A DNA stretch of 64,000 nt, taken from the IMG/VR virus record IMGVR_UViG_3300007538_000022, positions 1 to 64,000 of that record; one strand, 5' to 3'. Shown here one piece after another: positions 2,989 to 51,810 of this stretch. Numbering within the stretch: position 1 is the first letter of the stretch; the number at the start of each line of letters is the position of its first letter. The position numbers were made by a program, and so were the translations under genes. Origin of the DNA: a virus. Below the pieces are notes generated by a model. The model made no database searches, was not told where the DNA came from, and saw only the letters and a program-made list of their open reading frames with translations.

Positions 2989-3672
2989 TTATGCGGTTTT
3001 ATTTACGATATTCATAAATTCAAGACGTAAACTATGATCTGTTTTAAATGCTCCCCCAAGTTTTGATGTAACTGTACTTGAACCAGTATCCTCAACACCT
3101 CTAGCAGCAACACAGTAATGTTTTGCATCAATTACTACTGCAATATGATCTGTTTCCAGAATATATTGTAAAGCATAATATACTTGCTCAGTTAATCTCT
3201 CTTGAATTTGTGGTCTTTTTGCAAAATATTCAACAACTCGATTAATTTTTGATAATCCTAACACTTTGTTTTTTGGAATATATGCCACAGTTGCAAAACC
3301 GTCGATTACTACGCCATGATGCTCGCATTGACTTTGAACATTGACATTTTTCTCAACAACCATTTCATCATAACCCATTTTATTTTCAACAGTTGTACAT
3401 TTTGGAAAATGTTCAGGTATTAACCCCCACATTGTTTCTAAAACCCACATTTTTGCCATTCGTTTCGGTGTTTCAGCTAAACTATCATCTGTCAAATCGA
3501 GGCCCATTGTTTTCCAAATTTCAGTAAAATGATGTGTTAATTTTTCAATTTTAACACCTGAAGCCTCGTTAAGTTCATAAATTGACAAAGGTGTTTCTAC
3601 ATTACATTTTACTAAATGTTTATGAATTTCTTGTCCTAAAATTGGATCTGTTTTATTTATTTGAAATGCCAT
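2989..3672 (-). CDS. folE: GTP cyclohydrolase I
   Basis: Converts GTP to 7,8-dihydroneopterin triphosphate, the first step of folate and 7-deazaguanine synthesis. The start is ATG 3672 (MAFQINK, 227 residues): TTAGGAGATATT precedes it, while the longer frame to 3774 would overlap the neighbouring gene. Family hallmarks are clear: CEHH at 116-119 and HYC at 185-187, giving zinc ligands C116, H119 and C187; QERLT at 157-161; and ARGVEDTGSST near 190-200. Length matches bacterial FolE. With QueD (51175) and the DpdA-like enzyme (7097) in the same genome, the likely purpose is preQ0-type base synthesis rather than folate. QueE and QueC are not in this window. Confidence 0.95.
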   Translation of the reverse strand: MAFQINKTDPILGQEIHKHLVKCNVETPLSIYELNEASGVKIEKLTHHFTEIWKTMGLDLTDDSLAETPKRMAKMWVLETMWGLIPEHFPKCTTVENKMGYDEMVVEKNVNVQSQCEHHGVVIDGFATVAYIPKNKVLGLSKINRVVEYFAKRPQIQERLTEQVYYALQYILETDHIAVVIDAKHYCVAARGVEDTGSSTVTSKLGGAFKTDHSLRLEFMNIVNKTA

Positions 3673-3685
3673 AATATCTCCTAAT

Positions 3686-4225
3686 TTACTTATAAGTATC
3701 TTCCCAGGGGAATACAATCCATTCGTTATTTTCAGCTTTATTAATTTCTTTCCAACAATATGATACACCATCAAAACTTGATACTAGGTTATCTATTATT
3801 ACTGAAAATCTTACATTATGACCCCAGACGGTATCCCATACATTAGTTGAATCTAGCATACACGATCGTTGCCAGTCATCTTTCAACCAGTTAAATGTAG
3901 CTCCTGTGTCATTAATGTCGTCTACTACTAATATTTGTTTCCGTTCATTAGTAATAGTAGGTTCTACTAACGGATGTGAACTAACATAACCGTAAGCATC
4001 CTCGCTCATCCACAAATTACTTTCTAACCCTACCATATCTCGCAAACTAATTCCTAATCCATACATTGGGATTTTCAACCGATGGCTTAACATTACTGCT
4101 AACGGTAACCCTCCTCTAGCAATACCTACAATATAATCAGGACGCCAGTTATCGTTGTACATTTTAAGAATAATACTATTAATTGCAGTATCAATATCTT
4201 TCCATGTTAAGTGCGTAAGGTTCAT
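3686..4225 (-). CDS. purine-type phosphoribosyltransferase
   Basis: 179 residues with the type I PRTase fold signature: ARGGLPLAVMLSHRL near 36-50 and the PRPP loop VVDDINDTGAT at 100-110. Such enzymes join PRPP to a nucleobase; the short size and the YIVGIARGG start resemble xanthine/hypoxanthine-guanine PRTases (Gpt/Hpt) common in phages. The ATG overlaps the stop of the upstream dUTPase gene as ATGA, so translation is probably coupled. Substrate cannot be assigned from sequence. It could salvage purines or a modified base for the neighbouring deazaguanine pathway; that link is inference. Confidence 0.85.
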   Translation of the reverse strand: MNLTHLTWKDIDTAINSIILKMYNDNWRPDYIVGIARGGLPLAVMLSHRLKIPMYGLGISLRDMVGLESNLWMSEDAYGYVSSHPLVEPTITNERKQILVVDDINDTGATFNWLKDDWQRSCMLDSTNVWDTVWGHNVRFSVIIDNLVSSFDGVSYCWKEINKAENNEWIVFPWEDTYK

Positions 4226-4890
4226 TGCATACTTCCTACAGTTATATGATTATATTGTTCTTGAAGTTTATTGAAAATTACATCTTTATCAACAACTTCA
4301 GTCTCATTAAGAATTTGTTCTAAAAATACGTTATCTTCATAATTGCCCCATTGTTTTTGATATGATCCATTTTTATATCCATTTGCTTGTCTAAATAAAT
4401 TAAGAACATTTTTACCTATATATGCTTTAAAAAAGTCAGAAACAGTATAACCTAAAAATAAATGAGAGATTAAAATAGGCTCAAGCGTTAGTTCAATTAA
4501 ATCTAACGAGTCATTATCGGCATATATACATTTAATAGCATGTTCTATTGCTACAATTGCTTGTTGTTTATTTTCAGGAACATATTCTTGCTCTGCAATC
4601 TCGCTAATTTTTTTAGATAAGTCGCTTTCAAAATTAAGCGGTGATTCCATTACATTTGAAAGAGCAAAGTGAAATACATCAACCATTTCAATAAATGCTT
4701 GATAGTAGTTAGGTTCTTGATGTTTCCACCATTTCCAATTAAGATGGTCAATAGCTTCGACATATTCAACTAGCATTGCACGTTTCCAGTTATAATTATT
4801 CCCCCTCCATATAGGATGTACTGCGGTATTCATTGTGTCTTGTAAATATACACAATCTTTAACAGATTTCTCAATTTCATTAATATTCAT
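4222..4890 (-). CDS. dimeric dUTP diphosphatase (all-alpha NTP pyrophosphatase)
   Basis: Hydrolyses dUTP to dUMP and pyrophosphate, keeping uracil out of phage DNA and feeding thymidylate synthase. 222 residues. The paired metal-binding helices are visible: E42-x-x-E45 followed by a W-rich helix (NWKWWK), then E68-x-x-D71-x-x-H74 in IEMVDVFHF. This is the dimeric dUTPase/MazG-like superfamily pattern, not the trimeric beta-form. The stop overlaps the next gene by four bases, and the start overlaps the glycosyltransferase stop by 11. DHFR, dCMP deaminase and ThyA elsewhere in the window complete the dTTP route. Confidence 0.85.
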   Translation of the reverse strand: MNINEIEKSVKDCVYLQDTMNTAVHPIWRGNNYNWKRAMLVEYVEAIDHLNWKWWKHQEPNYYQAFIEMVDVFHFALSNVMESPLNFESDLSKKISEIAEQEYVPENKQQAIVAIEHAIKCIYADNDSLDLIELTLEPILISHLFLGYTVSDFFKAYIGKNVLNLFRQANGYKNGSYQKQWGNYEDNVFLEQILNETEVVDKDVIFNKLQEQYNHITVGSMQ

Positions 4891-5941
4891 TTGTTACCTT
4901 TTTATATAGTTTGTTACCTGAAAAAAAATCTAAGTACGTATCAGAAAGATATCGATTAATATCATTTTCGATTCTATCATAATTATACATAGTATATCTT
5001 ATTTTGTCAATTAAGTTATGTTTATGTTTTTGATATAATTCAAAATTTAAAGTCCATTCTGAAGGATAGAGAAAATTATCATAGTCTTTAAATATCTCCG
5101 TATAACTTAGTCTATTAGGTGCTAACGGTATTACACCAAATATAGGGCCTTCTGCACATGTTGAAATTCCCAGTGTTTCCTGTAAATTTGCACTAAACAC
5201 TATTTTTGCCTTATCTAAAATTGAATGATATTGATCTTTTGATAATGAGTTTTCTTGACATACTACAAAATCAAATTCAGGCATTTCTTTTTTCAAGTCG
5301 TAAAATATGTCAACTTGTTTTTCAGGTGCAATCCTATGTGGGAAAACAATTAAATTTTCTTTATTTTCAAATGTTGGACGCAGCGTTGCCTGTAAATATT
5401 CCATAGGCCATCCCACTTTATAAATCTTACTAGAATTACTATTTAATCCAAACGTATAACAAAATAATTGTTTATGATAATCTGTTGCAAAAAAATTGTG
5501 GTCATAACATTCGTACATTGAACGTTCTGCGTGTCTAATCCACGGTGTATTACCAATTAGCCTCCCTAAGAAATCGTTGTCATCATACGATCCAGCATGC
5601 CATAATCCACCTATTTTAATGTCAACATTAATTAATGATGCCATATACTTTAATTGTATAACTGTTGGATTCCATGCATCAGTATATAAGAAATAATCTC
5701 CATCTTTTACTTTACCAGTTGAAAATAATTGACTAATCTTTTGAAGTTGTGATGATTTATAATTGTTAGTTGCGCTGAAATCTAAAAATGCACCAGGAGT
5801 TGTAGTTGGAGGAATTTCATTTCCAGAGATATTTACTACATCTAAAAATGAGTATTGTTCAATTTGATTGGGGATAAACTCTCGCCATTGTTTAGTATAA
5901 CGAGTATCTATGGGTTCTAAATCTATAATATAAATAGTCAT
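4880..5941 (-). CDS. GT-B type glycosyltransferase
   Basis: 353 residues. The C-terminal half has GT4/GT1 features: FPHRIAPEKQVDIF near 200, and an E-x7-E-like nucleotide-sugar site in ETLGISTCAEGP, followed by VIPLAPN. The N-terminal half is the less conserved acceptor domain. The acceptor is unknown. Similar phage enzymes glycosylate modified bases or surface sugars; the position beside dUTPase, PRTase and FolE, and near the DpdA-like gene, makes a DNA-modification role possible but unproven. A hairpin lies just upstream. Confidence 0.78.
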   Translation of the reverse strand: MTIYIIDLEPIDTRYTKQWREFIPNQIEQYSFLDVVNISGNEIPPTTTPGAFLDFSATNNYKSSQLQKISQLFSTGKVKDGDYFLYTDAWNPTVIQLKYMASLINVDIKIGGLWHAGSYDDNDFLGRLIGNTPWIRHAERSMYECYDHNFFATDYHKQLFCYTFGLNSNSSKIYKVGWPMEYLQATLRPTFENKENLIVFPHRIAPEKQVDIFYDLKKEMPEFDFVVCQENSLSKDQYHSILDKAKIVFSANLQETLGISTCAEGPIFGVIPLAPNRLSYTEIFKDYDNFLYPSEWTLNFELYQKHKHNLIDKIRYTMYNYDRIENDINRYLSDTYLDFFSGNKLYKKVTNEY

Positions 5942-5954
5942 AATTTTGAATTAT

Positions 5955-5980
5955 ATTGCCTAGTACAAATACTAGGCAAT
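5955..5980 (-). terminator. hairpin terminator-like element
   Basis: Perfect 11-bp inverted repeat ATTGCCTAGTA / TACTAGGCAAT with a 4-base loop, in the gap between 5994 and 5941. The minus-strand downstream sequence (ATATAATTC) is not a clean U tract, so it may be an mRNA-stabilising or partial terminator hairpin. Confidence 0.6.
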
Positions 5981-5993
5981 TAATGAGTTAAAA

Positions 5994-6197
5994 TTAACGG
6001 CGTCGGGTATCTTTATTTCGGAAATCTGCGCGAGCTTTTGCTCTTAGATATCCTCGATATTTCTTATATGCTTCCCACACCGGTGCACCGTGACTGTATA
6101 AGTCCTTTTCATCAAATACTTTACCTTCAAACCGACAGTAATCTCTAAATTTATCAAGATCGTCAAAAATTTGATCAATGTTAGGTACATTATTCAT
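5994..6197 (-). CDS. conserved small phage protein
   Basis: 67 residues: an acidic and aromatic N-terminal helix region (IFDDLDKFRDYCRFEGKVFD) and a very basic tail (RAKARADFRNKDTRRR). I recognise the N-terminal pattern from small proteins in marine T4-like phages, but no function is known. AAGGAAAAC precedes the ATG. It lies between the QueD-like gene and the glycosyltransferase. Confidence 0.6.
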   Translation of the reverse strand: MNNVPNIDQIFDDLDKFRDYCRFEGKVFDEKDLYSHGAPVWEAYKKYRGYLRAKARADFRNKDTRRR

Positions 6198-6223
6198 TAG
6201 TTTTCCTTATTTCTTAGATGATA

Positions 6224-6589
6224 TTACTCGTGATAATATTCGATTATACCATCTGACTCTCCATCTTCTGAAACTACTACAATGTAATCTCTTGAAGAGC
6301 CGTATGTAGTTAATAAAAAATTGTTTAATATAATAGTTGCAATTGATTCACAACTGTGAGTATTTAGCTCTTGATTTTTTAGAAAGTTATTTAAATTCCA
6401 TTTTACTAAGAAAAATTCCAATTCTCTATCTAAGTGTGTAACAGATATTTTGACGCTAACTTTAAAAATATGTCTATGCATGTTTTCTAAAAATGAAATT
6501 TTAGGATCAATTTTCCCAGCATCTGGGTAACAATGAAATCCTTCAAATTCTGTTCGAACTTTTATAAATTGTTTTATTTTTGCACTCAT
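6224..6589 (-). CDS. small QueD-like (T-fold) conserved phage protein
   Basis: 121 residues. EFEGFHCYPDA, then NMHRHIFKVSVKISV, resembles the HGHSYKVEV strand of QueD/6-pyruvoyl-tetrahydropterin synthases. A helix (SCESIATIILNNFL) and VVVSEDGESDG fit the QueD order PTAENIAK then VWET. The Cys-x3-HGH zinc/catalytic motif is incomplete (HRH only), so it may not have the QueD reaction; a true QueD is at 51175. Similar proteins occur widely in phages without a known role. Position in an operon with the DpdA-like gene suggests work on the same base. QueD relation is inference from pattern. Confidence 0.55.
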   Translation of the reverse strand: MSAKIKQFIKVRTEFEGFHCYPDAGKIDPKISFLENMHRHIFKVSVKISVTHLDRELEFFLVKWNLNNFLKNQELNTHSCESIATIILNNFLLTTYGSSRDYIVVVSEDGESDGIIEYYHE

Positions 6590-6591
6590 AC

Positions 6592-7113
6592 TTAATATAT
6601 CACTGTGTCATTAGAATATTCAGACCAAGATGTAAATTTTTCTCTAGGAAGCAACGAATGTAAAGAGTGGCACCATACACCTGGATTAGATTCTTTAAAA
6701 TTTCTATCATCAATTTTAATCATGGTATTATAATTCCAGTGAGATACATATGGAATAGGAACTCTTATTTGTGGAATAAAGTTATCCCATTCACATAATC
6801 CACCTTCTAAAAAGTCTGCTGCATGCGATACATGAATGTCTAAACTACACAAAATATCTTTTTCTAAAAAATAACGAATCATAGTTTCCCACTCTAAATA
6901 ATCATCACTAGATGTTGGATTAAAACTATGATTAGCACCGAAAAATAGATGAGTACACGAATTGTCCTCCATGTAATGTACAATATCTGAAAATGATTGT
7001 ATTCCTACAATAAATAAAGTTTTTTGATTATATGCTGGAGTTTTTTCAACTTCGTATCCAGTAAAAAACGTAGCATTATTAACTGTGTTATTTGAATTAT
7101 ATGTTCTCTTCAT
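6592..7113 (-). CDS. conserved phage protein of unknown function (DpdA neighbour)
   Basis: 173 residues, cytosolic, no membrane segment. Recognisable conserved stretches are TLFIVGIQSFSDIV, CTHLFFGANHSF, NFIPQIRVPIPYVSHWNYNT, IKIDDRNFKESNPGVWCH and SLLPREKFTSW. I recognise this as a family present in many T4-like marine phages with no assigned function. The start overlaps the end of the DpdA-like gene by 17 bases, and the stop lies two bases from the QueD-like gene, so the three genes are tightly coupled. A role in base modification is suggested only by this linkage. Confidence 0.6.
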   Translation of the reverse strand: MKRTYNSNNTVNNATFFTGYEVEKTPAYNQKTLFIVGIQSFSDIVHYMEDNSCTHLFFGANHSFNPTSSDDYLEWETMIRYFLEKDILCSLDIHVSHAADFLEGGLCEWDNFIPQIRVPIPYVSHWNYNTMIKIDDRNFKESNPGVWCHSLHSLLPREKFTSWSEYSNDTVIY

Positions 7114-8644
7114 TTTCTAAAATCTCTAAGTTATGTTCTTGGTCTTCTGAAAAATCAGTTTCTTCAGATTGATCTACTTCTTCAAAAAATAAACTGTAAT
7201 TTGTGGACGAATTTATAGTTCTTTTCCCAACAGTTCCACGGGTTCCTATAATTTGCATCCAAAATTTACTATACTTTTCAATAGTTTTAATTGATGTATC
7301 TCTGTCTTTACACGAAAAGATTTCATCTACTAAATCTCTAAATAAAATTCGATTAAAATTTTCTTTTACTAGCATATTGGGAATTATACCGGTATCATAC
7401 CGACGATTTGCTTCCTGAACAGCATTAACATGAGCCCATACGTTATGGCACATTTGCATAGCATATGCAAATCCATCCCATGAAGTTACACTCATTTTAC
7501 CAACTTTATTTATTTGCCCAGGTGCATAAAAACAAATATCATTTATTTTTAACCCAGCAGTTATCGGCGAATCGTCAAATCGACTAAAAAACCCATCTTG
7601 AAGCATTGCTTGCCTAAAATTACGAGTATCAGCATGATATTTACGATCATCTATACCTGGTACCATCCGATAAACCCATTTGCTTCTATCGTCGATTTCA
7701 TATTGAGTATAAATTTGTCCATTAGCAGATGCTAAAAACGGACTTGCACAGTCGAATGTAATTGTAAACTTGGGATTATGGTATTTTCGTACTGCACGTT
7801 GAATATCAGTTAGCATAACAGCCCATTCCAATCGCGAAGTGCCTAAAAAATGCATAAAATCATGGATACCTTCTTCTAATAATCCATCATGAATTATTTC
7901 AACTATCCTATGCAACACTAAATGAATATCACACATATTTTGTCCACCCATTGCCCATCCATTAAAATGAGTTTCTGGAAATTGATTTGGATCACAATAA
8001 TGTTTCATTCGTTTGTACCAATCGTGTGCTTCAGTATGATTTTCACCTTGAAGTACATTTAGGAATTTACAATTACCGTTGCGGTGATGTATAAACCAAT
8101 CGTTATTAATGTAAGTACCTTGAACTGCATCTTCATAAGATGTAATTCCAGTAGCATCTCGTCCTGCAGGAGATCTACATACCCATGCAGGGATATCTAA
8201 AATCATTCCATAATCCATAAACGCATCCATCCAAGTTAAAACTTGTTCGCGTTTCTTTTGTGCTTTCGGACAAGCTGGATTTTTCCAGTCACCTTCCCAA
8301 ACACCTTTCCCTATTTGGAATCCACCCGAGTCACCTAGTAACCAACTATTATCACGATCACGATTTCTGACCATATCTTCCTTTATTACATACTTTGTAA
8401 CATTTAAATCAGCATGACCTGCTGAATATAATGACCATTTATATTTAAATTGTCCTTGAGTTGGATTTAAATAATTAAGACTTTCAACTCCATGTGTTAA
8501 ACTAGGTGGTAATCTAGTAGCAGGAATATAATTACTGTTATTTCGTTGTCTACCAATAAATGCTGCAAAAAACCCGCTGATTGCAGGTAAAAAAACAGCA
8601 TAATCTTTTTGTTCATATGTTAAATTTGTATTCATTCTTTCCAT
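7097..8644 (-). CDS. dpdA: TGT/DpdA-like deazaguanine DNA transglycosylase
   Basis: 515 residues related to tRNA-guanine transglycosylase. TGT landmarks appear in order: DSGGFQ at 105-110 (active-site Asp105), ILDIPAW ending near 154, VLQG near 197, GWAMGG at 229-234 (TGT glycine loop), HFLG at 265-268, and FDCASPF with D298 in the place of the TGT nucleophile (DCxxPT). The TGT zinc site is not evident. Phage enzymes of this type (DpdA) exchange guanine in DNA for preQ0-like bases, protecting phage DNA from restriction. With FolE and QueD in the genome this reading is favoured over tRNA modification. ATG 8644 is used; a second ATG at residue 4 is possible. Confidence 0.75.
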   Translation of the reverse strand: MERMNTNLTYEQKDYAVFLPAISGFFAAFIGRQRNNSNYIPATRLPPSLTHGVESLNYLNPTQGQFKYKWSLYSAGHADLNVTKYVIKEDMVRNRDRDNSWLLGDSGGFQIGKGVWEGDWKNPACPKAQKKREQVLTWMDAFMDYGMILDIPAWVCRSPAGRDATGITSYEDAVQGTYINNDWFIHHRNGNCKFLNVLQGENHTEAHDWYKRMKHYCDPNQFPETHFNGWAMGGQNMCDIHLVLHRIVEIIHDGLLEEGIHDFMHFLGTSRLEWAVMLTDIQRAVRKYHNPKFTITFDCASPFLASANGQIYTQYEIDDRSKWVYRMVPGIDDRKYHADTRNFRQAMLQDGFFSRFDDSPITAGLKINDICFYAPGQINKVGKMSVTSWDGFAYAMQMCHNVWAHVNAVQEANRRYDTGIIPNMLVKENFNRILFRDLVDEIFSCKDRDTSIKTIEKYSKFWMQIIGTRGTVGKRTINSSTNYSLFFEEVDQSEETDFSEDQEHNLEILENEENI

Positions 8645-8956: not shown

Positions 8957-9688
8957 CTATTTAGTTTGAGAAGGTAAGATATAATTATATACTGCTAATC
9001 CAGAGTCAACTGATATTTGCATTGCTCCTTGATCAGAAATGCTCATAGTAATATCTCCATTTAGATTAAGAATACTTAATACGTTGTTAATTGGCCAGCT
9101 ACATACGTGCGATAATGTACCTGAAACATTATTATGAAACACAAACGATCCTTCATGACTTGATGCATCACCGAAACTAAAAATTAAATTGTTGTTTACA
9201 GTTTTTACATTAAATAATGTTTCTTCAGAATGTGCAGCTCTTTGTAAACGCAATCTTGAAACAGCAGAAATTGCCGGTTCAAAGGTAACATTCCATTTTG
9301 CTCCTTTAAATCGTACACTTTTCATTTTTTCTTCAATAATTACTTTATTCATAAAACGATACGTATTCTCAAAATCTCCTAATTCATTGCTAAAATGAAT
9401 ATGAACCGGAACTACTTCGTTATTTCTAGTATCATTTATTACGTCAATAATTGCATTTTCTTGATATTCTGGATTTTTTAAATGTAGATTTAATTTATCT
9501 AAATTAGACATTCCAAACACACCGCTAAATTCGGAAACCGGTGATTTAGTATTTCCAAACAGTACTACAGATTTATCATCTGATAACGACTCGATTGTAG
9601 TTTCTGTTTCATTAGTTGAAACTTTAAGTAAGTTGATAAAACCTAAAGAATGAGTGTGTTCGACGATGTCAGTTAAAATGTCTTTCAT
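8957..9688 (-). CDS. 45: DNA polymerase sliding clamp (gp45)
   Basis: 243 residues, close to T4 gp45 (228). The opening MKDILTDIVEHTHSLGFINLLKV, the central KWNVTFEPAISAVSRLQRAAH-type region and the ending SVDSGLAVYNYILPSQTK fit the trimeric clamp that tethers gp43 to DNA and also activates late transcription in T4. It lies next to the polymerase gene halves, and gp44 is at 23834. AAGGAACATC precedes the ATG. The gp62 clamp-loader subunit is not recognised in this window. Confidence 0.88.
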   Translation of the reverse strand: MKDILTDIVEHTHSLGFINLLKVSTNETETTIESLSDDKSVVLFGNTKSPVSEFSGVFGMSNLDKLNLHLKNPEYQENAIIDVINDTRNNEVVPVHIHFSNELGDFENTYRFMNKVIIEEKMKSVRFKGAKWNVTFEPAISAVSRLRLQRAAHSEETLFNVKTVNNNLIFSFGDASSHEGSFVFHNNVSGTLSHVCSWPINNVLSILNLNGDITMSISDQGAMQISVDSGLAVYNYILPSQTK

Positions 9689-9739: not shown

Positions 9740-10726
9740 TTATGAAAAATCAAATAAATCATTAAAGTGATTATCTCGTTTAGTTGAATCGATATCGTAA
9801 TTCAGTACTCCAATTAAGTTAGAGATCTTGTTATCTATAATAGTTTCAGACATTGCATCGTCGTCAAATGGCAATTCTTTAAACCATTCTGGTAATCGTA
9901 GTTCGTCAGTTGGATATGCAATAGAAGTCCACCCTAATGGGTTTGATCTAAGCTTGCAAACAATAACTTTCATTCCATCAACAATTTCCATTGAATGTTT
10001 GTCGCTATTTGCTCTACGTAGTGAGTTCCAGTTCAATGAAGCTCTAATATGCCCTGGCATATTAGCTTTCCCTAATCGTTCTTCTAATTCTTTATAGTGA
10101 GCTACATTGTTAGCACGTTTAGGAGTACCTTTATCCCATCCAGGCATGTCTTTAAATTTCTTTCTAAAAACAGTAATTTGTTCCAATATATCTTCTTCAG
10201 ATGATTCTTGTAAAACCATTAATAAAATTTTCATTAAAAATTCTTGCATATAGTCGGGAGTATCTGATCTACGTAAATCTAACCCCATAGCCTTAACTTT
10301 ACCTGGCTTACCATCTACATCTTTACGCTTCCCTTCTTCATCGTATACTAATGCAGCATATCGTTTTTTTGTGATGTATAATCCACTTAATGCAACAATC
10401 TCTCTACCTGCAGCAATAACATCCGATCTTGCTTTCCCACAATGAAATGCTTTTTCCATAAATTTTGGAAATGAAGAATTAGCTTGTTCGCATATTTGAT
10501 CATATAATACAACAACTTTTTCTTTATCCCAGGGTAACGTACCGTTGTTTATTTCGTTTTCAAATAATGGAAATGCGGAAAAATACACAGAGTCGGTATT
10601 GTGTACAAGTGATCCATTTGCAAAAAAGAATGGATCTTGATTAGCTATCGATACATCATAAACATAATCCTCTGTAGTATCTAATTTTTCTACACTTTTA
10701 ACTCGTTGTCTTATTGTTTCAGCCAT
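9740..10726 (-). CDS. 43: DNA polymerase gp43, C-terminal half with split-intein C fragment
   Basis: 328 residues. Residues 1-43 are the C-terminal part of a split intein: DYVYDVSIANQDPFFFANG, ending in Val-His-Asn. Extein sequence starts at Thr44 as TDSVYF, the second half of the family B polymerase motif C (YGDTDS). The rest (KKRYAALVYDEE, MGLDLRRSDTP and beyond) is the gp43 thumb and C-terminus, 285 residues. Joined to the 602-residue N-extein it gives 887 residues, close to T4 gp43 (898). The polymerase can only be active after trans-splicing with the product of 10930. The ATG overlaps the end of a decayed endonuclease frame. Confidence 0.92.
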   Translation of the reverse strand: MAETIRQRVKSVEKLDTTEDYVYDVSIANQDPFFFANGSLVHNTDSVYFSAFPLFENEINNGTLPWDKEKVVVLYDQICEQANSSFPKFMEKAFHCGKARSDVIAAGREIVALSGLYITKKRYAALVYDEEGKRKDVDGKPGKVKAMGLDLRRSDTPDYMQEFLMKILLMVLQESSEEDILEQITVFRKKFKDMPGWDKGTPKRANNVAHYKELEERLGKANMPGHIRASLNWNSLRRANSDKHSMEIVDGMKVIVCKLRSNPLGWTSIAYPTDELRLPEWFKELPFDDDAMSETIIDNKISNLIGVLNYDIDSTKRDNHFNDLFDFS

Positions 10727-10887
10727 TTAACACACCTTTGTATAGTTTCATGCATATTATTCTTAAATTCTGATTCCCAAATTACTAAAGTAGGAATATT
10801 TCTTTCAAATAATAATGCGTTAATTTTTTCTTTATCTTTTTGCCAAATATCTCTAGCAAGTAAATTTGCCTGTCTATGATAATAACC
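10711..10887 (-). pseudogene. remnant of a Vsr-like homing endonuclease between split-intein halves
   Basis: 58 codons open after a TAA, with no start codon at the left end. The translation starts GYYHRQANLLARDIWQKD, continues to NIPTLVIWESEF, and ends ETIQRCVKWLKQ. The pattern HRQ-rD-x-KD, then L-I-W-E-x-E matches the C-terminal part of Vsr/EDxHD-type endonucleases, where such motifs carry catalytic residues. The N-terminal half is missing, so it should be inactive. Its place between two halves of a split-intein gene matches the fractured-gene arrangement known from marine phage sequences. The family call is from pattern only. Confidence 0.6.
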
Positions 10888-10929
10888 TTACTCCTAATCA
10901 AGTTAAAAAAGCCAAAGATATAAAGAAAA

Positions 10930-13101
10930 TTAAGAATCTATAGAGATAATCAAATCATTATCTTCTAACTCTGTAGGTTTAACTTCGACTGTAACCCCAT
11001 CTCTATCAACTATTAAACTATGATCTTCTGTAACAGTCACAGAGCTACCGTCTTCCATTGTAACCTTGTATAATTGTTTAGATGTTTTATGTCGCATAAC
11101 ATACGCAATCTCACCAAATACAGCCTCATCTTCGTGTGCATTATATCCTAATACTTTTAGATCATGCTGTGCTTCTGTAGGAATAGCATATTCCTTGCCA
11201 TTATCTTGTTCTACTTTATACTGAATTTGATCAAACAAGTCTGATATAGGCATATCTCCTTTGTTCGTGTTTAATATAGTATCACCTATAACAGAGTCAC
11301 CATATATAACTGCTTTGCCGACATGGTCATAATCACCTGAAATTATCTTATTAACTTCTGCACTCATATGACGAACAATGCTTCTACCTGTTAATGTAGT
11401 AGATTGCCCTATACGTTTATCAAAAAATCGACAGCCTTGGTTTAATATAGCTCCATAAAGACTGTTTAAGTTAATTTTCTTTACAAGTTGGCGTTTATCC
11501 CAAAATGCAGCTTCTAACGTGTTTCCTGCTTGATCTGCTTTTTTCTTTTTAGCTTGAAGCTCTTTCCTTTCAGCATACCATCGTTTTAACAAACCTGGAA
11601 TAACACCTTCAAATTCAGTAGTAAATATTGTTCCATTTGCAGAAAGCATCCATGGTACATTACTTTCAAATATGAATTTATATATTTCAGCACCACTAAA
11701 TGTATCGGATTTACCATTAGTCCAGTCAATTGTAATAGCTAGATCTTTTCTTTTGTCCATTACAGCTTCATATTCTAAACTACTAAATCGGCCTTCCCAT
11801 GCTGTTGCGAACTTTTTTTTGTTTAATACAACTTCTTCATGCAACATTTGCTCAGTATAGTCCTGCCTTAATTGACCTACAATAGTTTCAGGAGCCATAT
11901 TTAATGCTCTAATAACGCTAGGATACAGTGAATTTAAGTCCATCGATCCTATCCATTTGTGGAATCCTTTTTTAGGATAAGCTACATATGCACCTGCTGC
12001 TTGCACTGCTTGTTCCGATTTTGGAGATCTATTTGGTACTTGTAGTCCACGTTCGTGCGCTTCGTTAATAATAGCTTGTTCTGTTACAGCTACTGCTCCC
12101 ATTGTAGTCTGAAGTAATACGGTATTTGCGTGAGCAAGTTCGTTTGTTAAATCTATAAATTTAAGTTTTTTATCAAGTTTATTCAATAACACAGTATCTT
12201 GGATATTATATTCGATAAACTTTTTAAAATCATTATTATATAATTGGTCTAAAGTTCCATCGTATGGAACTTTAGTTTCATTAACTTCTAATTCCCCAAT
12301 TGCGTCTAATCGATACGAATGTCTTTCTTCGTATGTATACTTTCTATAAAGTTCTAAAGAATCTAAATGAATCCTTCCAACAAGATCATACGTTTTTGAA
12401 ATTTTGCCATATCTTTCAAATTCTCGTTTTTTAGGAAGTTGATTCCATAAACAGAATCGTCGAGTATCGTCTTTGCTCAATGCTTTTGCTACCCGATTAA
12501 CCGTATATGGAATATCAAAACTTTCAGAGTTCCATCCTGAAAGCACATCGGCATCTTCAATTAAAGTTAAAAATGAATCTAACATTTCTGCTTCAGAATT
12601 ATATAATATTACACCGTTGATGTCTTTAACTTCTTCAGCAGCTTGCTCCATTGTTAAGGTTTTTGGTGGTACAGCTAAACATACCATTGTATCTAACCAT
12701 TGCAAATATACAGATATAGCAGTAATTGGCATAAACGGGTCATTAGGTGATGCATAACCTTTAGTTGGATCAAAGTCTGTTTCAATGTCAAAAAATGCAA
12801 TGTTTAGCTTAGGTGAATCCTGATTTAAATAGTGTTCGCTTAAATTTTGGAATATTGGATTAATATCAGATTCATAAAGTACTGAATTTTTATTAATAGC
12901 TAGTTCTTTTCTAAAATCTTTAGTATTTTTACATACTATTCTTGAAAGTGGTGTATTGTATATACTCTTATATTTTCCCTTTTGATCTTCATAGTAAAAC
13001 GTATATTTCACAGGATAATCAACAAATTTACGGGAGCCGTTATGCCGTTCTACTATGCGTATAGTGTCGGCTTCTTTATCAAAAAATGCATCTATGTACA
13101 T
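10930..13101 (-). CDS. 43: DNA polymerase gp43, N-terminal half with split-intein N fragment
   Basis: 723 residues. Residues 1-602 are family B polymerase: exonuclease motif I FFDIETDFD with D105 and E107, ExoII NSESFDIPY from 191, ExoIII YNIQDT near 298-303, motif A DLNSLYPS at 388-395, and motif B KKINLNSLYG. The extein ends at Tyr-Gly-Asp. The intein N fragment (121 residues) starts with Ser (SVIGDTIL), and has block B in VTVTEDHSLIV. A Ser at intein position 1, not Cys, is less usual. The protein stops after DLIISIDS. The missing TDS half of motif C is encoded separately at 9740. GAGGTTTT precedes the ATG. Confidence 0.95.
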   Translation of the reverse strand: MYIDAFFDKEADTIRIVERHNGSRKFVDYPVKYTFYYEDQKGKYKSIYNTPLSRIVCKNTKDFRKELAINKNSVLYESDINPIFQNLSEHYLNQDSPKLNIAFFDIETDFDPTKGYASPNDPFMPITAISVYLQWLDTMVCLAVPPKTLTMEQAAEEVKDINGVILYNSEAEMLDSFLTLIEDADVLSGWNSESFDIPYTVNRVAKALSKDDTRRFCLWNQLPKKREFERYGKISKTYDLVGRIHLDSLELYRKYTYEERHSYRLDAIGELEVNETKVPYDGTLDQLYNNDFKKFIEYNIQDTVLLNKLDKKLKFIDLTNELAHANTVLLQTTMGAVAVTEQAIINEAHERGLQVPNRSPKSEQAVQAAGAYVAYPKKGFHKWIGSMDLNSLYPSVIRALNMAPETIVGQLRQDYTEQMLHEEVVLNKKKFATAWEGRFSSLEYEAVMDKRKDLAITIDWTNGKSDTFSGAEIYKFIFESNVPWMLSANGTIFTTEFEGVIPGLLKRWYAERKELQAKKKKADQAGNTLEAAFWDKRQLVKKINLNSLYGAILNQGCRFFDKRIGQSTTLTGRSIVRHMSAEVNKIISGDYDHVGKAVIYGDSVIGDTILNTNKGDMPISDLFDQIQYKVEQDNGKEYAIPTEAQHDLKVLGYNAHEDEAVFGEIAYVMRHKTSKQLYKVTMEDGSSVTVTEDHSLIVDRDGVTVEVKPTELEDNDLIISIDS

Positions 13102-48425: not shown

Positions 48426-49445
48426 TTACATCAACTGATCTTTAAACTTATTATAAAGTTCAGTTGTTGCAAGATTTTTATTTTTTGATTCGCACATAAT
48501 ATCGGCAGTATTTGAAAAGGACAATGCCCATTCATTTACTGTATGATTTGGGTAATTATCACTATGCGCTCGTAACTTTTGTCGTTTACATCCAGACTCT
48601 TTCAACAGTTGCATATTTGGAAAGTCATTTTCAATATGACCAACAAATTCGTGTCTACTATAACTATAATGAATTACCGGTCTTACTCCGTTCCACGAAT
48701 CTATAATACGTAGATATCGACTGTCATTTGGTTTGATATATTCTCCAGTGTTAACAAAATGATGATGAATATCTAATACTAATGCACAATCATTAGCTAG
48801 TTCTAAACTAGCATCGATACCCCATTTATTTTCGTCATTTTCAATAGTTATACAATTCCTTGCTTCAGACGATAGTCTAGGTAATACTTGTTTAATACCA
48901 TCAGGCCCACGTTTACCTGAAATATGAACATTAATTTTAAAATCTTGAAATTGTTTTCCATATCCCATCCATCGAGCAATGTCGGTGTGATATTCAAATT
49001 CTTTAATTGAATTTTCAACAATAGCATCATTATCGCTTGCTAAAACAGTAAATTGACCTGGATGCATTGATAATCTAATATCATTATCTCTTGCAATTTT
49101 TCCAATTTTTGATAATTCAGATTCGCATAGAGATCTAACATCTGATTGTTTCCAAAACGGTTGAAACTGCTCATGAGTGTATAATGGAAGACAATCACTT
49201 CCTATACGATACATTCTTAAACTTTGATCTAATTTTGAAACATATTCAATTGCATTTTTTAATGCAAGTAAGTTATGCTGTGTTAAGTACCATAACCGTT
49301 CATTTACACCATATGCTGTTTGTTCAGATAACCATTTAACTGTTGTAGATTTAAAATTTAAATTAGGTACAGCAACTACTTTATTTTTTACTTTTTCTGA
49401 TATTTTACAAGCAAACCCTAGACGTTTGATATTTTGATTAAACAT
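48426..49445 (-). CDS. uvsE: UV damage endonuclease
   Basis: Start taken at ATG 49445 (MFNQNIKRLGFACK, 339 residues), with a weak GGA site; an ATG at 49493 has none. UvdE/UvsE family features: RLGFACKI, YRIGSDCLP, LSMHPGQFTVLAS, NVHISGKRGPDG, ITIENDENKWG, LVLDIHHHFVN, and HSDNYPNHTVNEWA. This TIM-barrel enzyme nicks 5' to pyrimidine dimers and replaces T4's DenV role. A sigma70-type promoter with a nearby dyad lies upstream. Confidence 0.9.
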   Translation of the reverse strand: MFNQNIKRLGFACKISEKVKNKVVAVPNLNFKSTTVKWLSEQTAYGVNERLWYLTQHNLLALKNAIEYVSKLDQSLRMYRIGSDCLPLYTHEQFQPFWKQSDVRSLCESELSKIGKIARDNDIRLSMHPGQFTVLASDNDAIVENSIKEFEYHTDIARWMGYGKQFQDFKINVHISGKRGPDGIKQVLPRLSSEARNCITIENDENKWGIDASLELANDCALVLDIHHHFVNTGEYIKPNDSRYLRIIDSWNGVRPVIHYSYSRHEFVGHIENDFPNMQLLKESGCKRQKLRAHSDNYPNHTVNEWALSFSNTADIMCESKNKNLATTELYNKFKDQLM

Positions 49446-49525
49446 GATTATTTTTTCCAAGTTAGTGAATTGCGCTTGATTGATGTTAAGCATAGAGGTA
49501 ATGTGTACTATACAACATAGTGTAC

Positions 49526-51174: not shown

Positions 51175-51810
51175 TTACCCATATCTGCAATGACTTTTTT
51201 TAGTTTCCCATAATTCTACTGCAGATACAGTTGCTATATTACCGATTTTTGATTGTGCATAATCTTTTAAAAATTTACAAATGTTTTCACTTGTAGGACA
51301 AAAATCAACAATAACAAAACTATCACGGTGTAATTGTAAATTTTCATCATCTACCGGAAATTCAGCTCCTAAATGAATAATCTTATTTTTAAGAAAGTTT
51401 TCTTTAATTGCAATATCATACGGACTTACTGTAGTAATTATCATACAATTTGGATCATTAATATCAACCATAAATTTATGATCTAATATTTCATCTAAAA
51501 ACTGTTTCATAAAGTTTAAATTTTTGAAATCAGTTACCATAAACGACTGGTCTAATTCAGATGATGATAACTCAATTTTTACTTCGTATGAATGTCCATG
51601 TAAATGTTTACATGCACAATCTGTTGTTATACTTAAATCCTCATGCTCCAACTTTTGAGACCATACACGATGTCCCATTTCAAAATTAAATGTCTTATCA
51701 ATTGACCAAATCGGCTTTTGTTCCTGTGGTTCAACGTCAGGAGTAACTGGAATATCTTCTACTACTGGCAATTCTACTACTTTTTTTGATTTTTTAAAAA
51801 AACTAAACAT
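51175..51810 (-). CDS. queD: 6-carboxy-tetrahydropterin synthase QueD with N-terminal extension
   Basis: 211 residues; the QueD domain starts near 38. It has H47 (FEMGHRVW), C67-x3-H71-G-H73 (CKHLHGHSYEV) as catalytic Cys plus zinc ligands, a DFKNL motif, DHKFM, PTSENICKFL and a C-terminal VELWETKKSHCRY. It converts dihydroneopterin triphosphate (the FolE product) to 6-carboxy-tetrahydropterin. The first 37 residues (FFKKSKKVVELPVVEDIPV, then Pro/Glu-rich) are extra and look disordered. Start AAATC-rich, with AGGATAAATC before the ATG. Together with folE, it supports a phage deazaguanine pathway. Confidence 0.9.
   Translation of the reverse strand: MFSFFKKSKKVVELPVVEDIPVTPDVEPQEQKPIWSIDKTFNFEMGHRVWSQKLEHEDLSITTDCACKHLHGHSYEVKIELSSSELDQSFMVTDFKNLNFMKQFLDEILDHKFMVDINDPNCMIITTVSPYDIAIKENFLKNKIIHLGAEFPVDDENLQLHRDSFVIVDFCPTSENICKFLKDYAQSKIGNIATVSAVELWETKKSHCRYG

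Follow-up and report, generated by a model that had tools for sequence, protein, structure and literature searches.

A phage gene cluster around a diverged DpdA-like transglycosylase points to a probable 7-deazaguanine DNA modification module without QueC

We examined a 64,000-nucleotide stretch of viral DNA (the window), corresponding to positions 1–64,000 of the 90,274-base marine phage contig IMGVR_UViG_3300007538_000022, in which a minus-strand gene cluster at 2989–8644 surrounds a diverged DpdA-like guanine transglycosylase. An original prediction, made from the sequence alone, had read this region as a 7-deazaguanine DNA modification system comprising FolE, QueD, an enzyme resembling tRNA-guanine transglycosylase (TGT) and two small open reading frames (ORFs); all five were found where it had placed them, on the minus strand. 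The transglycosylase gene (DPD, 515 aa, 7097..8644) is followed by P173 (6592..7113), a conserved partner recognised by its predicted beta/alpha half-barrel structure and its co-occurrence with DPD, and by QDL (6224..6589), which encodes a 121-aa QueD-like protein (PHROG 17812). The tight coupling of these genes is real: P173 overlaps DPD by 17 nt, and QDL lies 2 nt further on. FolE (GTP cyclohydrolase I, 2989..3672) matches NCBIfam NF006824 at 1.7e-85 and passes the equivalog cut-off (286 vs 202 bits). QueD (6-carboxytetrahydropterin synthase, 51175..51810, unlinked to the cluster) matches Pfam PTPS (4e-24) and the QueD-like PHROG 2389 (9e-34), with its catalytic Cys, Asp-His and Glu motifs intact. 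The interval also holds a candidate GT-B/GT4-like glycosyltransferase on the same strand (GT, 4880..5941), recognised by GT4 motifs and sub-threshold Pfam matches, as well as phosphoribosyltransferase, dUTPase-like and 67-aa genes. None of these four had been mentioned in the original prediction, so that GT, the most strictly associated partner, was overlooked.

Searches of Pfam, PHROGs, NCBIfam and PADLOC returned nothing for DPD. We collected 46 relatives from IMG/VR and more distant ones using tblastn (E<=0.01), the latter comprising Pseudomonas phage PA5oct and its kin, Sinorhizobium phage Phosso, Vibrio phage 2.275.O and phage NCTB. Across 13 diverse members, down to 23% identity, the invariant positions include D105-SGGFQ, W138, D150-x-P, G200, G234, H265-x-LG, D298 and S301. 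The DSGGFQ, GWAMGG and FDCASP motifs quoted in the original prediction are present, and as their key residues are invariant in these homologues, they are not chance resemblances. D105, D150, Q199, G234, H265-x-LG and D298 follow the order seen in TGT, and we take the conserved positions to correspond to the acid/base Asp, the base-binding Asp, the QG and GG motifs and the nucleophilic Asp of that enzyme. When DPD is aligned directly with E. coli Tgt, FDCASPFLASANGQIY pairs with FDCVMPTRNARNGHLF. The AlphaFold2 model (predicted local distance difference test (pLDDT) 81, predicted template modelling score 0.85) gave 14 matches at E<1e-3 in a Foldseek search of the PDB, all 14 of them TGTs, and VIA aligned 301 residues of the model with 2ash (Z 19.2, root-mean-square deviation (rmsd) 4.2). 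As for its start, DPD has an alternative ATG three codons in, and other members begin MNTDLT.

Among characterised enzymes, the closest relatives of DPD are of the DpdA2 type, whose prototype comes from Vibrio phage nt-1, a phage with dPreQ0 in its DNA (PMC6884629). In profile comparison (hhalign), DPD and DpdA2 align with E 1e-11 and a score of 95, whereas shuffled or unrelated decoys score 22 at most, and a hidden Markov model of DPD run against the full genomes of nt-1 and KVP40 picks out DpdA2 at 4–5e-6. Both are TGT-derived, occur in FolE/QueD clusters and carry DSGG-Q, the IP-motif Asp, H-LG and the catalytic Asp in matching order. Both also lack the CxCxxC zinc motif of tRNA TGT, which is present in E. 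coli Tgt and absent from the DpdA1 and DpdA2 proteins examined; among the DPD sequences, it is missing from 12/13, including that of the window, the exception being NCTB, the most distant. However, core identity is only about 17%, a tblastn search with DPD (E<=0.01) does not return nt-1, and DPD, unlike the nt-1 enzyme, is usually found with QDL, P173 and GT and without QueC. We therefore place DPD among the DpdA-type enzymes, as a sister group of DpdA2 rather than a member of it.

The locus also resembles that of Enterobacteria phage 9g, where dpdA adjoins the DNA polymerase, clamp, FolE, QueD and QueE genes, although DpdA1 of 9g showed no detectable profile similarity to DPD in a test run, and 9g differs in having Gat-QueC and making dG+. 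DpdA3 and DpdA4 enzymes were reportedly described in 2023 by Cui and colleagues, with Campylobacter phage CP220 and halovirus HVTV-1 as sources; the DPD profile found no match in these two genomes, a genome search rather than an enzyme-to-enzyme comparison. In a Vibrio phage relative, DPD lies beside QueF, a YhhQ-type transporter, QueC and FolE, which ties DPD to deazaguanine chemistry independently of its partners. From the relation to DpdA2 and the gene neighbourhood we infer that the substrate is DNA, and DPD very likely inserts a deazaguanine into it.

The association of the partners with DPD was measured without circularity by searching IMG/VR with each partner alone. DPD was present in 77/78 P173 loci and 68/74 GT loci (the other six contigs stop just upstream of GT), and DPD or DpdA2 accompanied QDL in 66/80 loci, with the partner genes on the strand of DPD in all cases. 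P173 and QDL, which the original prediction had suggested might be undescribed partners, are thus conserved ones, as independent searches place both with the transglycosylase in nearly all relatives. The usual order is DNA polymerase, clamp, DPD, P173, QDL, (67-aa gene), GT, (phosphoribosyltransferase), FolE and often then QueE; FolE and QueE are recurrent in DPD loci. The same genes recur around DpdA2 in cultured phages: Acidovorax phage ACP17 has QueD-FolE-P173-DpdA2-GT-QDL-QueE consecutively, Xanthomonas phage X1 carries FolE, GT, DpdA2, QDL and QueE within 6 kb, and in Synechococcus phage BUCT-ZZ01 DpdA2, QDL and GT are grouped. The ACP17 cluster (and in part those of X1 and BUCT-ZZ01) shares the window's partner genes and comes without a strong QueC match, but with DpdA2 as the inserter and the partner genes annotated as hypothetical. 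Arrangements are looser in PA5oct (DPD-GT-QDL with QueE nearby and P173 elsewhere) and Phosso (QDL-GT-FolE-QueE with DPD elsewhere). Common descent alone would hardly explain why the partners accompany two DpdA types; their distribution speaks for a joint role in modification.

Some relatives carry additional genes at these loci. In one group (L018:9470-11241, L027:9470-11252, L030:9544-11300), genes that by eye resemble an oxidoreductase and a zinc-type alcohol dehydrogenase lie between DPD and P173 and possibly encode extra tailoring enzymes. YhhQ-family (Vut_1) transporter genes stand near FolE in two DPD loci (L025:15268-15873, L052:13862-14491), and their products possibly import a deazaguanine precursor.

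QDL aligns with the QueD profile with score 40 and E 1.2e-5 (hhalign), compared with 13–20 for unrelated families and at most 17 for shuffles. H19, H38 and H40, corresponding to the zinc histidines, and E81/E108 are 100% conserved in 58 sequences, so QDL has in common with QueD/PTPS the three-histidine zinc site and two glutamates. It differs in lacking the catalytic Cys and Asp-His of QueD (no Cys is conserved between H19 and H38, and a DH motif is absent) and in having an S-C-E motif that is new relative to QueD and invariant in the same 58 sequences. By these sequence features, QDL is a diverged relative of QueD, not QueD itself. Among 84,980 bacterial and archaeal species, it was found in only 10 metagenome-assembled contigs, several of them with the same phage-like cluster. 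Fourteen QDL loci have no DpdA within reach; some of these are contig-edge effects, and most others read QueE-QueD-FolE-QDL without GT. QDL fusions occur in phages Bakedbeans and MA9V-3; a scan of them for an informative partner domain found none. In phages D479 and MA9V-3 (L250:5989-8085, L252:5431-6782), QDL adjoins a nucleotide-kinase-like gene with no recognised DpdA near, an arrangement hinting at incorporation ahead of replication.

The presence of QDL coincides with the lack of a clear QueC. A strong QueC match occurs in 0/11 complete isolates bearing QDL vs 7/9 deazaguanine-related isolates without it (the seven at E 1e-46 or better; one-sided Fisher p 4.6e-4), and in 0/19 large contigs of the QDL type. 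Weak partial QueC matches in the large relatives (<=33 bits) were not counted; those whose flanks were read proved short or embedded in other ORFs and did not resemble a complete QueC. QueE, by contrast, is present in 18/19 of the same contigs. As the contig continues beyond 64 kb, the absence of a gene from the window proves little; extending the queE search over the whole 90-kb contig found none, yet given its presence in nearly all large relatives, the QueE of this phage probably lies outside the contig. The expectation that QueE and QueC would be encoded outside the window or supplied by the host thus finds support for QueE, whereas QueC is missing from the very relatives that carry QDL, which suggests a route without phage-made preQ0. 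Likewise, the DpdA-pathway reading is supported as far as a 7-deazaguanine system with a TGT-fold relative of DpdA2 at its core is concerned, but not for its QueC step. Several QueE copies (L013:14647-15627, L059:414-1310, L061:405-1268, L050:12469-13341) have a long insertion, tens of residues in length, separating the second radical-SAM cysteine from the third (C-x3-C...GCD), and the L013 copy goes unrecognised by Pfam.

P173 has no match in Pfam, NCBIfam, PHROGs or PADLOC. Its predicted structure is a compact beta/alpha half-barrel (pLDDT 87), to which only the homologue from ACP17 gave a strong structural match (BFVD, E 1.5e-5). The possibility that P173 is a cluster-less QueE was considered and rejected: hhalign gave a score of 23.7 vs 29 for shuffled QueE, the structural match to QueE 5th5 (Z 6.2, rmsd 3.6, 131 aligned) tied with unrelated folds, and P173 has no conserved Cys motif that could form a radical-SAM cluster. 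For GT, the E-x7-E and HR..PEK motifs are conserved in an alignment of 14 sequences, the window copy having one additional residue within the motif, while the Pfam Glycos_transf_1 match is below the cut-off and PDB matches are marginal. At >=80% coverage, GT occurs in only 16/50,697 phage records, which fall into five lineages (ACP17, X1, BUCT-ZZ01, PA5oct and Phosso), all with QDL and a DpdA-type enzyme.

Taking these results together, we favour the view that the cluster serves the hypermodification of phage DNA with a 7-deazaguanine, that it dispenses with QueC and that its partners may tailor the base. FolE and QueD, together with a QueE from beyond the contig, would convert GTP to 7-carboxy-7-deazaguanine (CDG). 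QDL would act on CDG or its successor instead of QueC, giving a product other than preQ0, and DPD would exchange guanines of the replicated phage DNA for that base; D298 would serve as nucleophile and D105 as acid/base, as their counterparts do in TGT. The GT4-like enzyme inherited along with DPD may then glycosylate the base, and P173 may act as an accessory subunit or as one more tailoring factor. The fold and motifs of DPD, its kinship with DpdA2 and the joint inheritance of the module are computational results; the steps built on them we hold with differing confidence. A QueC-less route to a CDG-derived base is, given the distribution of QueC, more likely than not. That QDL specifically is the enzyme on CDG that replaces QueC has about an even chance of being right; its reaction is read from gene content, the simplest reading being that QDL acts where QueC would, because QueC is absent and QueE present alongside it. 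Glycosylation of the inserted base by GT is a tentative proposal drawn from its exclusive company, and the full combination, in which a QueC-less CDG-derived base is inserted by DPD or DpdA2 and receives a sugar from a dedicated GT4-type enzyme, is a possibility we put slightly lower still. We know of no earlier description of a glycosylated 7-deazaguanine in DNA, which would be a new class of DNA base. The glucosylated hydroxymethylcytosine of T4 offers an analogy only, in that a modified base is decorated by a GT-B glycosyltransferase; there the base is cytosine, not guanine, and is made by other enzymes, and the glycosylated deazaguanine here is a prediction.

Several points weigh against this interpretation. 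The reactions of QDL and GT are guesses from context, and GT is represented by no more than about five lineages of isolates. The QDL-free isolates form a non-random set: they were picked as known deazaguanine phages, and some of them (nt-1 and KVP40) are close relatives. The IMG/VR loci, too, are mutually related, and counting them makes the evidence look more independent than it is. In some phages, such as Cellulophaga phage phiST and RHph_I1_18, QDL has no DpdA or GT nearby, so QDL alone does not imply glycosylation. A direct profile search with DPD against PDB sequences returned no TGT, but DpdA2 likewise finds none by plain sequence profile, so this missing link is not evidence against a TGT origin.

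The module might instead end at plain 7-deazaguanine, with QDL as a CDG decarboxylase and GT and P173 otherwise employed, for instance in assisting insertion or in modifying another molecule. A CDG decarboxylase, DpdL, and 7-deazaguanine itself (dDG) in phage DNA are said to have been reported by Cui and colleagues (2023, in NAR), and QDL may be DpdL, which would work at the step where QDL seems to stand in for QueC. QDL does appear to take the place of QueC in FolE-QueD-QueE clusters, and phiST has it without GT. Yet full-coverage GT turns up only in phages that have QDL and a DpdA-type enzyme, mostly within one operon. Such company would be difficult to account for if GT played no part in modification, and we regard this version as rather unlikely. 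A standard preQ0 pathway, with FolE, QueD and QueE from the phage, QueC or preQ0 from the host, and DPD inserting preQ0 as DpdA2 does, seems improbable. Host supply is a known possibility (PMC6884629) and some relatives carry a YhhQ-type transporter (Vut_1, 2.6e-24), but QueC disappears just where QDL appears, and these phages retain 3/4 preQ0 genes while consistently losing the same one.

Two further explanations have little to recommend them. The phosphoribosyltransferase could make a deazaguanine nucleotide for incorporation by the polymerase, leaving DPD secondary. Its gene is a recurrent member of the cluster, but it is less consistent than DPD, QDL and GT, PF00156 proteins usually serve ordinary purine salvage, and DPD keeps all its catalytic residues, making this very improbable. 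DPD could also be a tRNA-modifying TGT, as its fold and catalytic residues would allow, in a cluster that raises queuosine-type modification of host tRNA. This is the most remote of the readings considered: the zinc motif is missing, the closest characterised relatives are DpdA2 enzymes, the DPD gene adjoins the DNA polymerase and clamp genes as dpdA does in phage 9g, and no QueF was found among the QDL-bearing records searched.

7-Deazaguanine bases shield phage DNA from restriction. If the QueC-less module is real, it would be an unrecognised modification system common to hundreds of uncultured aquatic phages, the PA5oct-type Pseudomonas aeruginosa jumbo phages and ACP17, and several ‘hypothetical proteins’ would gain a testable role. 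The catalogue of natural DNA bases would gain a QueC-less route and possibly a sugar-bearing purine; the final base in the DNA may be an undescribed one, and carriers of the module exist in culture.

The remaining genes of the cluster and its flank, all on the minus strand, vary in how closely they follow DPD. For FolE, an ATG start at 3672 is more likely than the listed TTG at 3774 and abolishes the overlap with the upstream phosphoribosyltransferase gene (3686..4225; Pfam PF00156, 1.6e-12), which occurs in 58 DPD loci, always on the strand of DPD. Next in this phage’s operon is a dUTPase_2-family nucleotide hydrolase (4222..4890; Pfam PF08761, 1.3e-21) with no homologue among the relatives’ loci compared. 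Inside the cluster, the conserved 67-aa protein (5994..6197) has homologues at 35–75% identity in equivalent positions in several of the relatives’ loci. Directly upstream of DPD, and outside the pathway, lies a sliding-clamp-like gene (8957..9688), whose homologue is annotated as a sliding clamp in phage Phosso and which is found upstream of DPD in 121 loci. Upstream of the clamp, a family B DNA polymerase (9740..13101; Pfam DNA_pol_B), another conserved neighbour, is split into two ORFs with intein halves (Intein_splicing), apparently one split intein. On the same contig beyond the window, the large subunit of ribonucleotide reductase is likewise divided into separate ORFs (L049:4116-5581, L049:5593-7502), apparently by two split inteins. 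Contig positions 64001-78000 (L048) encode ClpS and heme oxygenase; inspection by eye adds GroEL, GroES, ClpP and an Hsp20-like protein, so that the host-like proteostasis gene set is unusually complete, and the window itself carries a UvdE-type UV-damage endonuclease at 48426-49493 (Pfam, 2.4e-39).

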